Shown here piece by piece: positions 35,376 to 41,066 of a DNA stretch of 41,989 nucleotides (positions are counted from its first letter, which is position 1; every line of letters begins with the position of its first letter). The DNA comes from Myxococcaceae bacterium (GTDB lineage Bacteria; Myxococcota; Myxococcia; Myxococcales; Myxococcaceae). Position numbers and translations under genes: made by a program. The DNA is taken from positions 1-41,989 of the forward strand of contig JAFGNZ010000204.1 of assembly GCA_016926755.1 (NCBI GenBank), written 5' to 3'. The notes under the pieces were generated by a model that saw only the letters and a program-made list of their open reading frames with translations, did not search any database and was not told the origin of the DNA.

Positions 35376-38300
35376 ATGAAAGTCTCGTGCCCGTCCTGCC
35401 AGACGACCTACAACATTGATGACAAGCGGATCCCGCCTGGCGGTGCGAAGCTGAAGTGCGCCCGGTGTCAGAACACCTTCCCCATCCGACCCCCCTCGGA
35501 TGACATACCCACGCCGATCGCCATTCCGCTGCCGGGCTCCGCCGCGCCCCAGTCCGCCGCCATCCCGCTGCCGGGCTCCGCCGCGCCCCGGTCCGCCGCC
35601 ATTCCGCTGCCGGGCTCCGCCGCGCCCCAGTCCGCCGCCATTCCCCTGCCGGGCTCCGCCGCGCCCCAGTCCGCTGCCATCCCCCTGCCCCCGGCACCGC
35701 AGGCCGGCGCCATTGCGCTGCCTCCGGCGCAGAGCTCCGGCGCCATCCCCCTGCCTCCCGCGCCCGCGGACGATCCCTTCGGCGCCGCTGGCGGCGGGGA
35801 CTACGCCTGGGACGAGACGGAGTCCACCCGCGTGGTGCCCCTGTCCTCCATCCCAAGCGCCGCGTACCGGGATCCACCGCCCGAGCCGGCCGCCCCCGCC
35901 TACGGCTTTCACGAGCCGCACGGCACGGCACGGGACTTCGACTTCTCCGACGCCCCCGCGGCCGAGCCCTTCGGCCATGATCCGAACGCGGCGGCGGGCT
36001 ACACCGACCCCTACGCCTCCTACGATCCGGGAGTGGCCGCGGAGGGCGCCATCCCGCTGCCTGGCTACCAGGAGTCGATCCCCCTGCCCGGGGACCCCAT
36101 GTCCCAGGGCGAGGCCATCCCGCTACCCGGCGGGGCGGACCCGAACGATCCCTTCGCCCTGCCGCCTCCCCCCACCGGCTACGCCGATCAGGGCTACGCC
36201 CAGCAGGGCTACGCCGATCAGGGCTACGCCGATCAGGGCTACGCCCAGCAGGGCGCTCCTCCCACGGAGGATCCGTTCGCCCTCCCCCCTCCGCCCGCGG
36301 CCCCGGAGCAGGATCCGTTCGCGCTGCCTCCCCCATCGGAGGACCCGTTCGCCCTGCCGCCGCCCCCAACGGGGATGCAGGGTGACGCCTACGCCATGCC
36401 TCCGGCTCCGGAGCAGGGGTTCTCCCTGCCGGAGATGGGGGTTCCCACGGAGCCGCTGCCCTCCGAGTCCTACGCCTTCCCGCCGCCGGCCGCGCCCACC
36501 GAGCCGGACCCGTTCGCCGTGGACCTCTCGCAGCCGCCCCCGCCGGCGCCCGCGCCTGACTACAGCATCGACTTCGGCGACCAGCCGCCCCCTTCCGCCC
36601 CTCCGCCCGCGGCCATCAACGTGGGCACCGACTTCGGGGACATCAGCTTCAATGATCCCCCTCCGCCCGGCGCCTCCGCGGCGGACTCCCTCGAGTTCGA
36701 CCCGACGGCCCCCTCGAGTCCCTCCGCCGGTGATGACCTCGAGGTGGATCTCTCCTCGCCCCTGCCGCCCCCTCCCACCCCGGGCAGCGCGGATGGCCTG
36801 GAGATGCTCAGCTTCATCGACGATGCCGCCAAGGACAGCGGCGCCAAGGGCGCTGCCAAGGCGAAGCGCTTCCACGTCCGCCGCCGCTCGGGCAAGGTCT
36901 TCGGCCCGTTCGAAGAGGGCGTCATCGTCAAGATGCTCGAGGAGGGCCAGCTCCTGGGCAACGAGGAGGTCTCCACCGACTCGGAGAGCTGGACGCCCAT
37001 CGGCACGATGGCCTCCTTCGCCGCCGCCATCCAGAGGCTGATGGAGGGCCCGTCCTCGAAGACCGGCCTGCCCGCCGTCTCCCCCACCGCCTCCCAGGAG
37101 CCCACCTCCAAGGCCGAGCAGAGCCCGGCCAACGTCAACGCGAACCTCGAGCGGGTGAAGCAGCTCTACGAGGGGCGCATGGCCACCGTCGCCGTGGTGG
37201 ACCGCAGCGGCTCCTACGAGAAGTGGCGCAAGCGCATGCCGTACCTCATCGGCGCCGGCGCGGCGACGCTCGTGCTGCTCATCGGCGCCAGCTTTGGCCT
37301 CACGCGCTACGGCGTCTTCGGCCACCGCAAGCTCTTCCCCCCACGCGTCTCGGCCGGCTCGCCCGCGGCCGCCAGCGTGGACACCGCGCGCAAGGAGCTG
37401 CTGCAGGACACCTTCGGCAGCTACCAGCAGGCGCGGGATCTGACCGCCAAGGTGCTCGCCACCAAGGAGTACCCCGAGGTCCGCGCGCTCTGGTGCCAGG
37501 CCGTCTTCTACCTCCAGCGCCGCTACGCCTCCGCGGATCAGAAGGACATCTCGCGCTGCCAGGCGGCCAAGGAGGACCTGGAGCTGCTCGGCTCCGGGAA
37601 CGTGGAGGCGCTCAAGGCCGTGGCGGGCTCCGCCCTGGCCCGGCGCCAGGCGGATGAGATCCTCGCGACCCTGAAGGATGCCTACAGCCGCGAGAGCAAC
37701 GCCAGGGACGTGGAGCTGGCCTTCCTGCTGGCCGAGGCCCATGCCCTCAAGCGTCAGGACAAGGAGGCCATGGCCACGCTCGAGCGGGCGCTCAAGGTCC
37801 ACAAGGACTCGGCCAAGGCCCTGCACATGATGGGCAACCTCCACCGGGACGCGGGCCGGGCCGCCGAGGCCTCCAAGGCCTACGAGGCGGCCTTCCAGGC
37901 TGATCCCACCCACGTCATCTCCGCGGTGGAGATGGCCGCGGTGGAGCTGCTGCTGCTCAAGGGGGATCCCGCCAAGGGCCTGCAGGCCGTGGAGAGCGCG
38001 CTGACGGAGAAGGCCCTGGCGGAGCTGGGCCCGGCGGAGATCGCCCGCGCCAAGGTGCTCAAGGGCGTGGCGCTCGCCGCGCAGTTCAAGCTCAAGGAGG
38101 CCGAGGCGGAGCTGAAGGACGCGCTGGAGAAGGACCCGAACTCCCTCTTCATCAAGGCCCAGCTGGCCCGCGTGCTGCGCGCCAGCCGAGACTTCGCCGG
38201 CGCCCTGCCGCTGTATGAGGCCGCGGTGAAGGAGGATCCCGGCACCATCGAGTACACGGAGGGCTACATCACCTCGCTGGTGATGCTGGGGAAGATGGCC

Positions 38301-39623
38301 GACGCGGCCAAGGCCGTGGAGGCTGCCAACTCCCGCTTCACCAATGACGCGCGCATCGCCCTGCTCTACGGCCGCATCGACGACGCGCGCGACCAGATCG
38401 CCTCCGCCGAGGAGCACTACCAGCGCGCCCTCAAGGCCGACCCCAACCTCTTCGAGGCCAACCTCTACCTGGGCCGCTTCTACCTGCGCCTGCGCCGCAA
38501 CGTGGACGCCCGCGCCCAGCTCGACGATGCGGCCAAGAAGGCCCCGGACACCGCCGGCGTGCACGCGGGCCTGGGCGAGCTGGCCCTCACGGAGAACAAG
38601 GTGGAGCTGGCCAAGCAGGAGTTCGAGCGCGCCGCCGAGCTCGATCCCAGCCTCGCGGAGGCCTACCTCGGCCTGTCCCGCGTGGCGCTGCTCAACGGGG
38701 ATCTGGAGAAGGCCCGGGCCAGCGCCAACAAGGCGCTGGAGCTGGATCCGCACCTGCTCAAGGACGGGCGCCTGCAGCGCGGCACCGTGCTGTGGCGGCT
38801 GGGCCAGCTCGACGAGGCGGTGGTGGAGCTGGAGAAGGCCAAGGAGGAGGATCCCCGCTCGGTCACCATCCCCATCACGCTGGGCGCGGTGCTCTACGAG
38901 AAGGGGGATCTGGCCGGCGCGGAGAAGAACCTCAGCCTCGCGCTCACCCGCGAGCCCTCCAACCACGAGGCGCTCTTCTACCTGGCCGTCGTCAAGGCCA
39001 AGCGCTCCGAGTACACCGGCGCCATCGAGCAGATGCGGCTCGCGGTGGAGAAGGCCCCCCAGCGGGCCGACTACCGCTTCGCCCTGGGAGACATCTACCG
39101 GAAGGACGAGCGCTTCGCCGAGGCCATCGAGGAGTGGAAGAAGACGATCGAGCTGGATCCGAAGAACGCGGACGCCTACGAGGCGCTCGGGCGCGTGTAC
39201 CTGGAGACCGGCGCCAAGGTGGAGGAGGCCATCTCCGTGCTCGAGTCCGCCCTCGCGGTGGATCCCAAGCGCAAGCGGGTGCTCGGCGCCATTGGTGATG
39301 CGTTCTTCACCGCCGGCCGCTGGGACGAGGCCGTCCGGCGCTACCAGAAGGCGCTCAAGGAGGCCCCGGAGCTCACCTACATCTATTACAAGATCGGCCG
39401 CGCCTTCTCCGAGCGCGAGCAGCACGGCCGCGCCATCGACTGGTACAAGAAGGCCGTCGCGGCGGAGCCGCAGAACGCCATGGCCTACTACTACCTGGCC
39501 TTCTCCTATAAGGACCGGCTCCGCAAGAAGGAGGCCGTCGCGGCCTTCAGGAAGTACCTGGAGCTCAAGCCGCAGGCCGAGGACAAGCGCGAGATCGAGG
39601 ACGAGATCGCCGCCCTCGAGTAG
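35376..39623 (+). CDS. zinc-ribbon / GYF / single-span / TPR envelope protein, gliding-machinery-like architecture
   Basis: 1415 residues. An MJ0042-type zinc ribbon opens the protein (Cys5, Cys8, Cys28, Cys31). Residues 41-490 are a proline-rich linker with four 13-residue IPLPGSAAP repeats, five GYA(D/Q)Q repeats, and DPFALPPP motifs. Residues 498-556 resemble a GYF domain (VRRRSGKVFGPFEEGVIVKML; GNEEVSTDSESWTPIG). A membrane span lies at about 622-644 (YLIGAGAATLVLLIGASFGL). The rest (670-1415) is a long TPR array for the periplasm. This plan recalls GltJ/AgmX- and GltI/AgmK-like proteins of Myxococcus gliding, where zinc-ribbon and GYF parts recruit polarity regulators. That is an architectural parallel, not an identified ortholog. 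It is monocistronic, and ends in a hairpin. Confidence 0.92.
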   Translation: MKVSCPSCQTTYNIDDKRIPPGGAKLKCARCQNTFPIRPPSDDIPTPIAIPLPGSAAPQSAAIPLPGSAAPRSAAIPLPGSAAPQSAAIPLPGSAAPQSAAIPLPPAPQAGAIALPPAQSSGAIPLPPAPADDPFGAAGGGDYAWDETESTRVVPLSSIPSAAYRDPPPEPAAPAYGFHEPHGTARDFDFSDAPAAEPFGHDPNAAAGYTDPYASYDPGVAAEGAIPLPGYQESIPLPGDPMSQGEAIPLPGGADPNDPFALPPPPTGYADQGYAQQGYADQGYADQGYAQQGAPPTEDPFALPPPPAAPEQDPFALPPPSEDPFALPPPPTGMQGDAYAMPPAPEQGFSLPEMGVPTEPLPSESYAFPPPAAPTEPDPFAVDLSQPPPPAPAPDYSIDFGDQPPPSAPPPAAINVGTDFGDISFNDPPPPGASAADSLEFDPTAPSSPSAGDDLEVDLSSPLPPPPTPGSADGLEMLSFIDDAAKDSGAKGAAKAKRFHVRRRSGKVFGPFEEGVIVKMLEEGQLLGNEEVSTDSESWTPIGTMASFAAAIQRLMEGPSSKTGLPAVSPTASQEPTSKAEQSPANVNANLERVKQLYEGRMATVAVVDRSGSYEKWRKRMPYLIGAGAATLVLLIGASFGLTRYGVFGHRKLFPPRVSAGSPAAASVDTARKELLQDTFGSYQQARDLTAKVLATKEYPEVRALWCQAVFYLQRRYASADQKDISRCQAAKEDLELLGSGNVEALKAVAGSALARRQADEILATLKDAYSRESNARDVELAFLLAEAHALKRQDKEAMATLERALKVHKDSAKALHMMGNLHRDAGRAAEASKAYEAAFQADPTHVISAVEMAAVELLLLKGDPAKGLQAVESALTEKALAELGPAEIARAKVLKGVALAAQFKLKEAEAELKDALEKDPNSLFIKAQLARVLRASRDFAGALPLYEAAVKEDPGTIEYTEGYITSLVMLGKMADAAKAVEAANSRFTNDARIALLYGRIDDARDQIASAEEHYQRALKADPNLFEANLYLGRFYLRLRRNVDARAQLDDAAKKAPDTAGVHAGLGELALTENKVELAKQEFERAAELDPSLAEAYLGLSRVALLNGDLEKARASANKALELDPHLLKDGRLQRGTVLWRLGQLDEAVVELEKAKEEDPRSVTIPITLGAVLYEKGDLAGAEKNLSLALTREPSNHEALFYLAVVKAKRSEYTGAIEQMRLAVEKAPQRADYRFALGDIYRKDERFAEAIEEWKKTIELDPKNADAYEALGRVYLETGAKVEEAISVLESALAVDPKRKRVLGAIGDAFFTAGRWDEAVRRYQKALKEAPELTYIYYKIGRAFSEREQHGRAIDWYKKAVAAEPQNAMAYYYLAFSYKDRLRKKEAVAAFRKYLELKPQAEDKREIEDEIAALE
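35523..35678 (+). repeat. four tandem 39-bp coding repeats (IPLPGSAAP[Q/R]SAA)
   Basis: Four near-identical 39-bp units sit inside the linker of the zinc-ribbon protein and keep frame. They differ by single bases (for example CAG/CGG in the third residue before the end). Degenerate IPLPPAP and IALPPAQ copies follow. Such an array can change copy number by slippage without breaking the gene. Confidence 0.9.
36177..36251 (+). repeat. five tandem 15-bp coding repeats (GYA[D/Q]Q)
   Basis: GGCTACGCCGATCAG and GGCTACGCCCAGCAG alternate in the order D, Q, D, D, Q. The array lies between two proline-rich DPFALPPP motifs of the same protein. Identical third positions point to recent expansion. Confidence 0.9.
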
Positions 39624-40997
<1,374 letters not shown>

Positions 40998-41005
40998 GCC
41001 ACATC

Positions 41006-41066
41006 CCCATTGCAATGGGCGATGGATCAGGTAGAAGAGCGGCCCCCGTGCAGCATGGCGGGCCGC
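41006..41066. promoter_or_regulatory. perfect 14-bp palindrome and hairpin between serS and tRNA-Ser
   Basis: CCCATTGCAATGGG (41006-41019) is a perfect 14-bp palindrome, unusual here for its AT-rich centre. It is followed by GCGGCCC (41039-41045) pairing with GGGCCGC (41060-41066), a 7-bp stem with a 14-nt loop and no T-run. The first could be an operator or a processing signal, the second the end of the serS transcript or a pre-tRNA leader stem. Confidence 0.4.

Follow-up and report, generated by a model that had tools for sequence, protein, structure and literature searches.

A membrane zinc-ribbon, GYF-fold and TPR protein of Myxococcota as a candidate trans-envelope adaptor

The locus and its gene

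The window analyzed here is a 41,989-nucleotide stretch of a Myxococcaceae genome (contig JAFGNZ010000204.1 of assembly GCA_016926755.1), and the gene in question lies toward its end. It is a single open frame with an ATG start on the forward strand, encoding a protein of 1415 residues. The protein carries an MJ0042 zinc ribbon, a proline-rich linker, a GYF-fold domain, one membrane span and an array of tetratricopeptide repeats (TPRs), in that order. This order had been proposed in the original prediction from the sequence, and the frame, Pfam matches, structural models and span prediction all bore it out.

35376..39623, + strand, whole gene: 1415 residues, zinc ribbon, linker, GYF, single span, TPR solenoid
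35376..35483, + strand, MJ0042-type zinc ribbon: residues 1-36, CX2C-X19-CX2C, aromatic F35
35484..36866, + strand, proline-rich linker, probably disordered: residues 37-497, about 460 residues; from shuffles and low model confidence
36867..37043, + strand, GYF-fold domain: residues 498-556; fold from model and structure alignment
37245..37301, + strand, single transmembrane segment: residues 624-642, predicted N-in
37362..39614, + strand, TPR solenoid: about 22 helical hairpins, predicted periplasmic

Among the best 25 of 35 NCBIfam matches of the whole protein, and in a scan of residues 1-642, only the ribbon model passed its cut-off. Large minus-strand frames are present over the gene (for example 36123-41015), apparently as mirror frames of a GC-rich sequence; 35454-35978, the one such frame scanned against Pfam, gave no match. 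A search of openly licensed papers found no description of the protein. It is a member of a previously undescribed family, which is new within the familiar class of membrane zinc-ribbon adaptors. Its architecture, topology and conservation, as described below, are predicted from sequence and models.

The zinc ribbon

Residues 1-36 match Zn_ribbon_4 (PF13717) with 56.4 bits against a Pfam cut-off of 30.3, and TIGR02098 with 38.6 bits against an NCBIfam cut-off of 20.9, placing the ribbon in the MJ0042 group. The four metal-binding cysteines are kept in 36 of the 37 loci whose N-terminus is intact and not lost to a contig end. Position 35 is phenylalanine in all 36 family members compared. A lysine or arginine occupies position 18 in 35 of these and position 27 in 33. 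Phe35 is also found in three other ribbons of the same genome (L063, L064 and L066).

Searched with phmmer against the PDB, the ribbon was closest to that of the gliding protein GltJ (7zok, E = 4.2e-7, 32.7 bits), followed by 2nb9 (E = 4e-6, 29.7 bits), which was identified as ZitP by the agreement of its letters with the ZitP fragment in the cited paper. Within the genome, identity to the window ribbon was 40% for L066, 37% for L064, 35% for L063, 32% for both L061 and L065 and 30% for GltJ, so that the GltJ ribbon is the least similar of the six, by a narrow margin. The ribbon protein L066 (8250-10466, minus strand, contig C153 of the same genome) carries in its linker a TTQVFGA repeat in many near-identical copies, with a weak Pfam match to FG-nucleoporin repeats (E = 3.3e-5, 25.1 bits, cut-off 32.2).

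The GYF-fold domain

Sequence similarity of this region to known GYF domains is low. The window protein reached 13.0 bits with Pfam GYF_2 (E = 0.09) against a cut-off of 25.8, and phmmer returned only chance matches among PDB sequences (E at least 0.42). Across the family, GYF_2 was matched at E ≤ 1 by 32 of 40 members, the best at 1.8e-6; the distant member L121, scanned as a whole protein, gave 24.5 bits. Residues G506, G510, P511, M520, G528 and E530 are invariant in all 40. An AlphaFold2 model of residues 423-572 (40 sequences; ma8825c33396c) had a predicted local distance difference test score (pLDDT) of 94-96 over model residues 81-130. Aligned with VIA-align, it was best matched by the GltJ GYF domain 7z3c (Z = 6.1, 70 aligned residues, 3.8 Å), followed by six further GYF entries (Z = 4.3-6.0) and three from the TIC complex (5.2-6.0); no other row exceeded 2.4. 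In Foldseek all E-values exceeded 0.001 (best 9.4e-3), and the first 14 rows comprised 11 GYF domains and three TIC-complex chains. Because of the model, these structural matches and the GYF_2 matches within the family, the domain is accepted as having a predicted GYF fold. The model's match to chains of the chloroplast TIC import complex (7vcf, 7xzi and 8z9y) is about as close as its match to the GYF domain of GltJ.

By equivalence of position, the name-giving tripeptide is Gly-Gln-Leu at residues 524-526 and not Gly-Tyr-Phe. The invariant Met520 stands at what we take to be the site of the tryptophan of eukaryotic GYF domains. With its pocket aromatics replaced, this GYF-type domain may reveal a new binding mode.

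When hand-cut GYF-like stretches of the same genome were aligned to that of the window protein, the scores were 63 for L064, 46 for L124, 25 for L062, 13 for L061 and 6 for GltJ. L124 (748-1722, minus strand, contig C244 of this genome) is a protein of 324 residues with an N-terminal GYF-like domain that gave 24.1 bits with profile A3, which was built from 40 of the 41 family loci (L103 was missed by the motif search). The GYF-like domain of L124 is followed by a J-domain-like and then a PilZ-like stretch, both judged by eye.

Membrane topology and the TPR solenoid

Of the 41 loci, 40 carry more lysine and arginine in the 15 residues N-terminal to the span than in the 15 C-terminal to it, and the other has equal numbers; the means are 4.49 and 2.07. 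Because of this excess, the N-terminal part is predicted to be cytoplasmic and the TPRs periplasmic. Counted from the first residue of the span, the protein continues for 783-832 residues in 40 of the 41 loci, the remaining one being truncated by its contig.

The C-terminal part gave very strong Pfam matches to TPR families. Its model, with a mean pLDDT of 93.4 over 773 residues, contains 46 helices in about 22 hairpins that form one unbroken solenoid. From the geometry of consensus TPR superhelices, the solenoid would be about 20 nm long, close to the width of the periplasm.

Cysteines are scarce in the TPR domain (66 in 27276 residues), and one pair lies on adjacent helices.

37494..37559, + strand, Cys707 and Cys728 on adjacent TPR helices: candidate disulfide

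Of the 35 rows in A4 (the 41 loci without L071, L076, L079, L109, L113 and L115), 12 have both cysteines and four have Cys707 only; Cys728 is never found by itself. Pairs in other lineages are 1282/1309, in three rows (1309 alone in five), and 1338/1360, in three of three. Few cysteines and recurring pairs fit an exported domain without proving one.

Distribution of the family

Profile searches covered 193 Myxococcota genomes. Profile A1 spans the GYF domain to the start of the TPRs; like alignment A2, it was made from 19 of the 21 loci of the organism's own family, f1 (L072 and L079, near copies, were omitted). At E ≤ 1e-10 it matched 139 of the 193 genomes, and 89 of the 117 within the order. 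A single match was found in 138 of the 139; G032 has two, on separate contigs. Within f1, 55 of 59 genomes were strongly matched (E = 6.4e-91 or better), while in the remaining four (G020, G025, G034 and G041) the best E-values ran from 9.5e-37 to 1.7e-11, with no A1 match. Three of these (G020, G034 and G041, genus g20, 2.1-2.7 Mb) have no match to the gene's profile, and two of the three keep the gliding protein GltE above its cut-off.

A separate related-locus search returned 17 loci, of which only L013 and L014 were clear orthologs, L013 (Hyalangium versicolor) being 82% identical to the window protein; the others were weak TPR matches. Pfam scans of six loci, one close and five from other families, found the ribbon and the TPRs in all six and, among the matches listed, GYF_2 at E ≤ 0.001 in one, L121.

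A proposed trans-envelope adaptor

The explanation we favor, with moderate confidence, is that the protein, from a family of its own that extends across the phylum Myxococcota, is a bitopic inner-membrane adaptor whose cytoplasmic head docks partners while its periplasmic solenoid holds envelope proteins. Docking of cytoplasmic partners would fall to the ribbon, the GYF-fold domain and the short motifs in the linker; the single span would traverse the inner membrane; and the continuous solenoid of about 22 hairpins would bind or position envelope proteins in the periplasm. A cytoplasmic cue, such as position or assembly state, could thereby be coupled to an envelope machine, as is seen for a ribbon joined to a periplasmic domain in ZitP and GltJ. 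Its role as a scaffold, how far the solenoid reaches and its partners are what we infer here.

This reading is suggested by the conservation of ribbon, GYF domain, span and TPRs together, the positive-inside pattern, the narrow range of length from the span onward and the unbroken solenoid. It is also favored by the single match per genome in 138 of 139 genomes and by the 30 genomes of the 139 that lack both GltJ and GltE above cut-off. A further argument is the analogy with ZitP, in which a cytoplasmic ribbon binds PopZ and a periplasmic DUF3426 domain serves pilus biogenesis.

Several observations weigh on the other side. The topology is a prediction, and in the window protein itself the margin is thin, with five basic residues against four around the span. 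The disulfides are uncertain: the cysteine count is odd in 12 of the 35 rows and zero in four, and Cys728 is missing from four of the 16 rows that have Cys707. The 54 of 193 genomes with no A1 match at 1e-10 mean that the protein can be dispensed with, even if divergence may account for some of the misses. The label "without GltJ" carries less weight than the bare count of 30 genomes with neither GltJ nor GltE above cut-off: half of them hold GltJ-like matches stronger than 1e-30 (the best at 2.3e-84), possibly from GltJs that have diverged, and incomplete drafts are among the 30. The conserved gene neighborhood is uninformative. Finally, the periplasmic TPRs might act as a chaperone or oligomerization module and not as a long scaffold.

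A bolder version, which we consider unlikely but not negligible, is that the protein is a phylum-wide, single-copy envelope-spanning ruler. In it the ribbon and GYF domain would read cytoplasmic polarity or the cytoskeleton, and a solenoid of 22 repeats, its length about equal to the width of the periplasm, would relay that position outward, to the outer membrane or the peptidoglycan. Were this true, the family would be a general Myxococcota adaptor for inside-to-outside positioning, separate from the Glt machine and perhaps older.

Relationship to the gliding machinery

GltJ, an effector of MglA (as cited in the excerpted text of PMC12288465), is the obvious candidate relative. Its likeness to the window protein lies in the N-terminal MJ0042 ribbon, the linker, the GYF-fold domain and the single span; the layout is identical up to the span, and, as noted above, the nearest solved structures of both ribbon and GYF domain are GltJ's. 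The resemblance in domain order that had been put forward thus stands, while membership does not. Against the GltJ model NF033761, residues 1-642 scored 21.5 bits, through the ribbon alone, where the cut-off is 450. A true GltJ (785 bits) is encoded elsewhere in the same genome, by L060 (3231-5276, minus strand) on contig C61, next to a 4091-residue frame that, from its size and place, is probably GltI. The window gene lies outside the glt cluster, beside serS. GltJ also ends in an AgmX/PglI tail in place of TPRs; the corresponding model, NF033768, was not among the best 25 of 35 NCBIfam matches of the whole window protein, whose model is helical to residue 1414. The two GYF domains are only weakly alike, and residue 35 of the ribbon is isoleucine in GltJ. 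GltJ membership was rejected on the score, the separate true GltJ, the GYF and ribbon comparison and residue 35.

A gliding role could nevertheless be envisaged: the ribbon and GYF domain would read MglA, MglB or AglZ as in a GltJ-like polarity sensor, and the TPRs would attach to periplasmic Glt parts. GltJ exceeded its cut-off in 93 of the 193 genomes and GltE in 116; among the 139 genomes with the family the numbers were 91 and 106. The family is thus present in 91 of the 93 GltJ genomes (G063 and G080 have GltJ without it, and ten genomes have GltE without it), and the GltJ-like matches in half of the 30 family genomes with neither protein above cut-off point the same way. This co-occurrence is confounded by phylogeny, and a role in gliding is still compatible with it. 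On the structural side, GltJ's are the sole myxobacterial ribbon and GYF domain among the PDB matches listed, which biases what counts as nearest, and within the genome the window GYF is closest to the paralog L064. In the remaining 15 of those 30 genomes, GltE likewise fails its cut-off and no GltJ match is stronger than 1e-30, and nine of these 15 are at least 90% complete; A1 matches are themselves weak in some of the 30 (1.5e-12 in G077, for example). Taken with residue 35 and the placement of the gene directly before serS in 26 of 41 loci, these points make a GltJ-like sensor distinctly unlikely, and the protein is probably not specific to Glt gliding.

The TPRs as a general periplasmic platform

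The solenoid could instead act in the periplasm as a general chaperone or assembly platform that serves outer-membrane or polysaccharide proteins, with the cytoplasmic part setting only its amount or position. PA4667 (E = 1.7e-39) and BcsC (3.9e-28) are among the best 60 of 427 matching solved sequences, and the strong matches in 55 of 59 f1 genomes agree with such a general role. Engineered TPRs and O-GlcNAc transferase are far ahead of both, and the structural matches of the model are generic superhelices as well (O-GlcNAc transferase, Z = 29.4 over 342 residues, and consensus TPRs). Such generic likeness is uninformative on function. The ribbon and GYF domain, moreover, are among the most conserved parts of the protein and would be unneeded in a mere anchor. 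We regard the platform as quite improbable.

Linker motifs and the proposed internal ligand

The linker contains two sets of short motifs.

35523..36131, + strand, stretch with all seven linker [IV]PLPG motifs: from motif count against shuffles
36690..36836, + strand, short motifs LEFDPTAP, DDLEVDLS-PLPPPP and LEMLSFIDD: residues 439-487, directly before the GYF domain

The many PLPG and PPPP motifs noted originally are real. Seven copies of [IV]PLPG were counted against a shuffle mean of 0.00 and maximum of 1, and six of PPPP against a mean of 1.00. The shuffle is a generous control, as the [IV]PLPG copies arise partly through tandem duplication, and their persistence across families is a better argument for the array. 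At least three copies are present in 25 of 41 loci, comprising 19 of 21 in f1 and others in f2 (one), f10 (one), f24 (one) and f29 (three); the two f1 exceptions are L075, truncated by its contig, and L088, with one copy. A DNA pattern for paired [IV]PLPG matched only the window gene in its own genome; its isoleucine codons were fixed, so that others may escape it.

The accompanying idea, that the GYF domain is blocked by its own [IV]PLPG or PPPP motifs until an outside proline-rich ligand or a ligand of the ribbon releases it, fared less well. PLPG is absent from the eight loci of f13, f16, f17 and f21 and present in zero or one copy in f5, f8 and f9, and the GYF domain is kept throughout. 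Because the array is missing from lineages that keep the domain, self-inhibition is unlikely as a general mechanism. The usual GYF ligand motif is PPG followed by a hydrophobic residue, and it was found in none of the 21 linkers as cut (L075 and L087 lack the N-terminal part, and L085-L087 were cut at residue 500). Together with the substituted tripeptide and tryptophan site, and a modeled linker portion (residues 423-497) whose low pLDDT beside the GYF domain is still compatible with binding, this leaves a self-blocked GYF domain very improbable despite the enriched and recurrent array.

As a candidate for a conserved docking site, the motifs next to the GYF domain are preferable to PLPG. The LEFDP and LEMLxF core is invariant among the 19 rows of alignment A2, and a loose pattern for a DFID-like motif just N-terminal of the GYF domain was matched in 34 of 41 loci. 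The region (residues 439-487) is modeled as a low-confidence helix. Elsewhere in the linker, an acidic-STRV/TTRV-type motif at window positions 35820-35834, found in 16 of 21 f1 loci in all, is a candidate phosphothreonine site for an FHA protein.

Gene neighborhood

39684..40997, + strand, serS, seryl-tRNA synthetase: TIGR00414, 533 bits; conserved downstream neighbor

The 26 loci with serS directly downstream on the same strand (match start 0-145 bp past the frame) are all 21 of f1, the one of f2 and all four of f13. In two further loci serS lies 1.9-2.4 kb away, and it was not seen in 13, two of which have less than 1 kb of downstream sequence. The window's amine-oxidase-like gene, which lies on the opposite strand and either upstream or abutting, recurs in 15 of the 21 f1 loci and in four more loci. 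Neither neighbor gives a pointer to motility. The adjacency to serS was also considered as a functional hint and set aside; it is conserved, but no mechanism is apparent. Four tRNA genes, three for serine and one for arginine, directly follow serS (window 41078-41990).

Comparison with known systems

The layout is like that of GltJ and ZitP, and the protein is a member of neither. ZitP is the best functional parallel by analogy. It is described in the excerpted text of PMC5182065 and PMC5182063 as having a cytoplasmic ribbon, one span and a periplasmic DUF3426 domain needed for pilus biogenesis; its W35 is needed for PopZ binding and is encircled by the basic residues K18, R24, R27 and R34. 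The window protein resembles it in the ribbon, predicted here to be cytoplasmic, the single span followed by a predicted periplasmic C-terminal domain (functional in ZitP), the aromatic residue 35 (tryptophan in ZitP, phenylalanine here) and the mostly kept basic positions 18 and 27. It differs in the rest of the basic patch, since two of the four ZitP positions, 24 and 34, are basic in none of the 36 family members. It also differs in having TPRs where ZitP has DUF3426 and PopZ binding (excerpted text of PMC5182065): its C-terminal part is TPR among the best 25 of 26 Pfam matches and helical in the model. According to the same excerpt, the ribbon of AgmX (GltJ), with isoleucine at 35, is not polar in Caulobacter. 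The docking face of the window ribbon is thus predicted from its residues to be unlike GltJ's at the single position known to matter, and ZitP-like in part.

With GltI (AgmK) the protein shares the character of a large myxobacterial TPR protein. The original prediction had likened the fusion to GltI-type proteins, and the TPR array itself agrees. The size does not: the array, at about 770 residues, is a fifth of the 4091-residue frame, and it is predicted to be periplasmic. GltI has 4132 residues in M. xanthus, TPRs are its sole listed domains, and the excerpted text of PMC3169522 names signal peptides for three of four TPR proteins, GltI not among them. The window protein, by comparison, has 1415 residues and a span, and lies beside serS and not in the glt cluster. 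A fusion with a GltI-like array was rejected because size and predicted membrane side differ.

SgmX, the type IV pilus effector of MglA, is likewise a myxobacterial TPR protein in polarity control. It differs in being likely cytoplasmic, without signal peptide or span, and in having five and three TPR domains with a stretch between them without known domain (excerpted text of PMC7519303).

The paralog L064 (6804-8225, minus strand, contig C340) has the same order of ribbon, linker, GYF-like stretch, span and three TPRs, and the best GYF alignment of the five compared; at 474 residues it is far smaller. Its ribbon and TPRs were found by Pfam and its GYF-like stretch and hydrophobic span by eye; GYF_2 was not among the best 25 of its 27 Pfam matches, and profile A3 gave no match at E ≤ 1.

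Zinc-ribbon membrane proteins that dock partners through a cytoplasmic head are known from Caulobacter, where ZitP controls polarity and pili, and from Myxococcus, where GltJ controls gliding. The family described here is a third arrangement, present with one match each in most of the Myxococcota genomes sampled, and a testable candidate for placing envelope machines from inside the cell.

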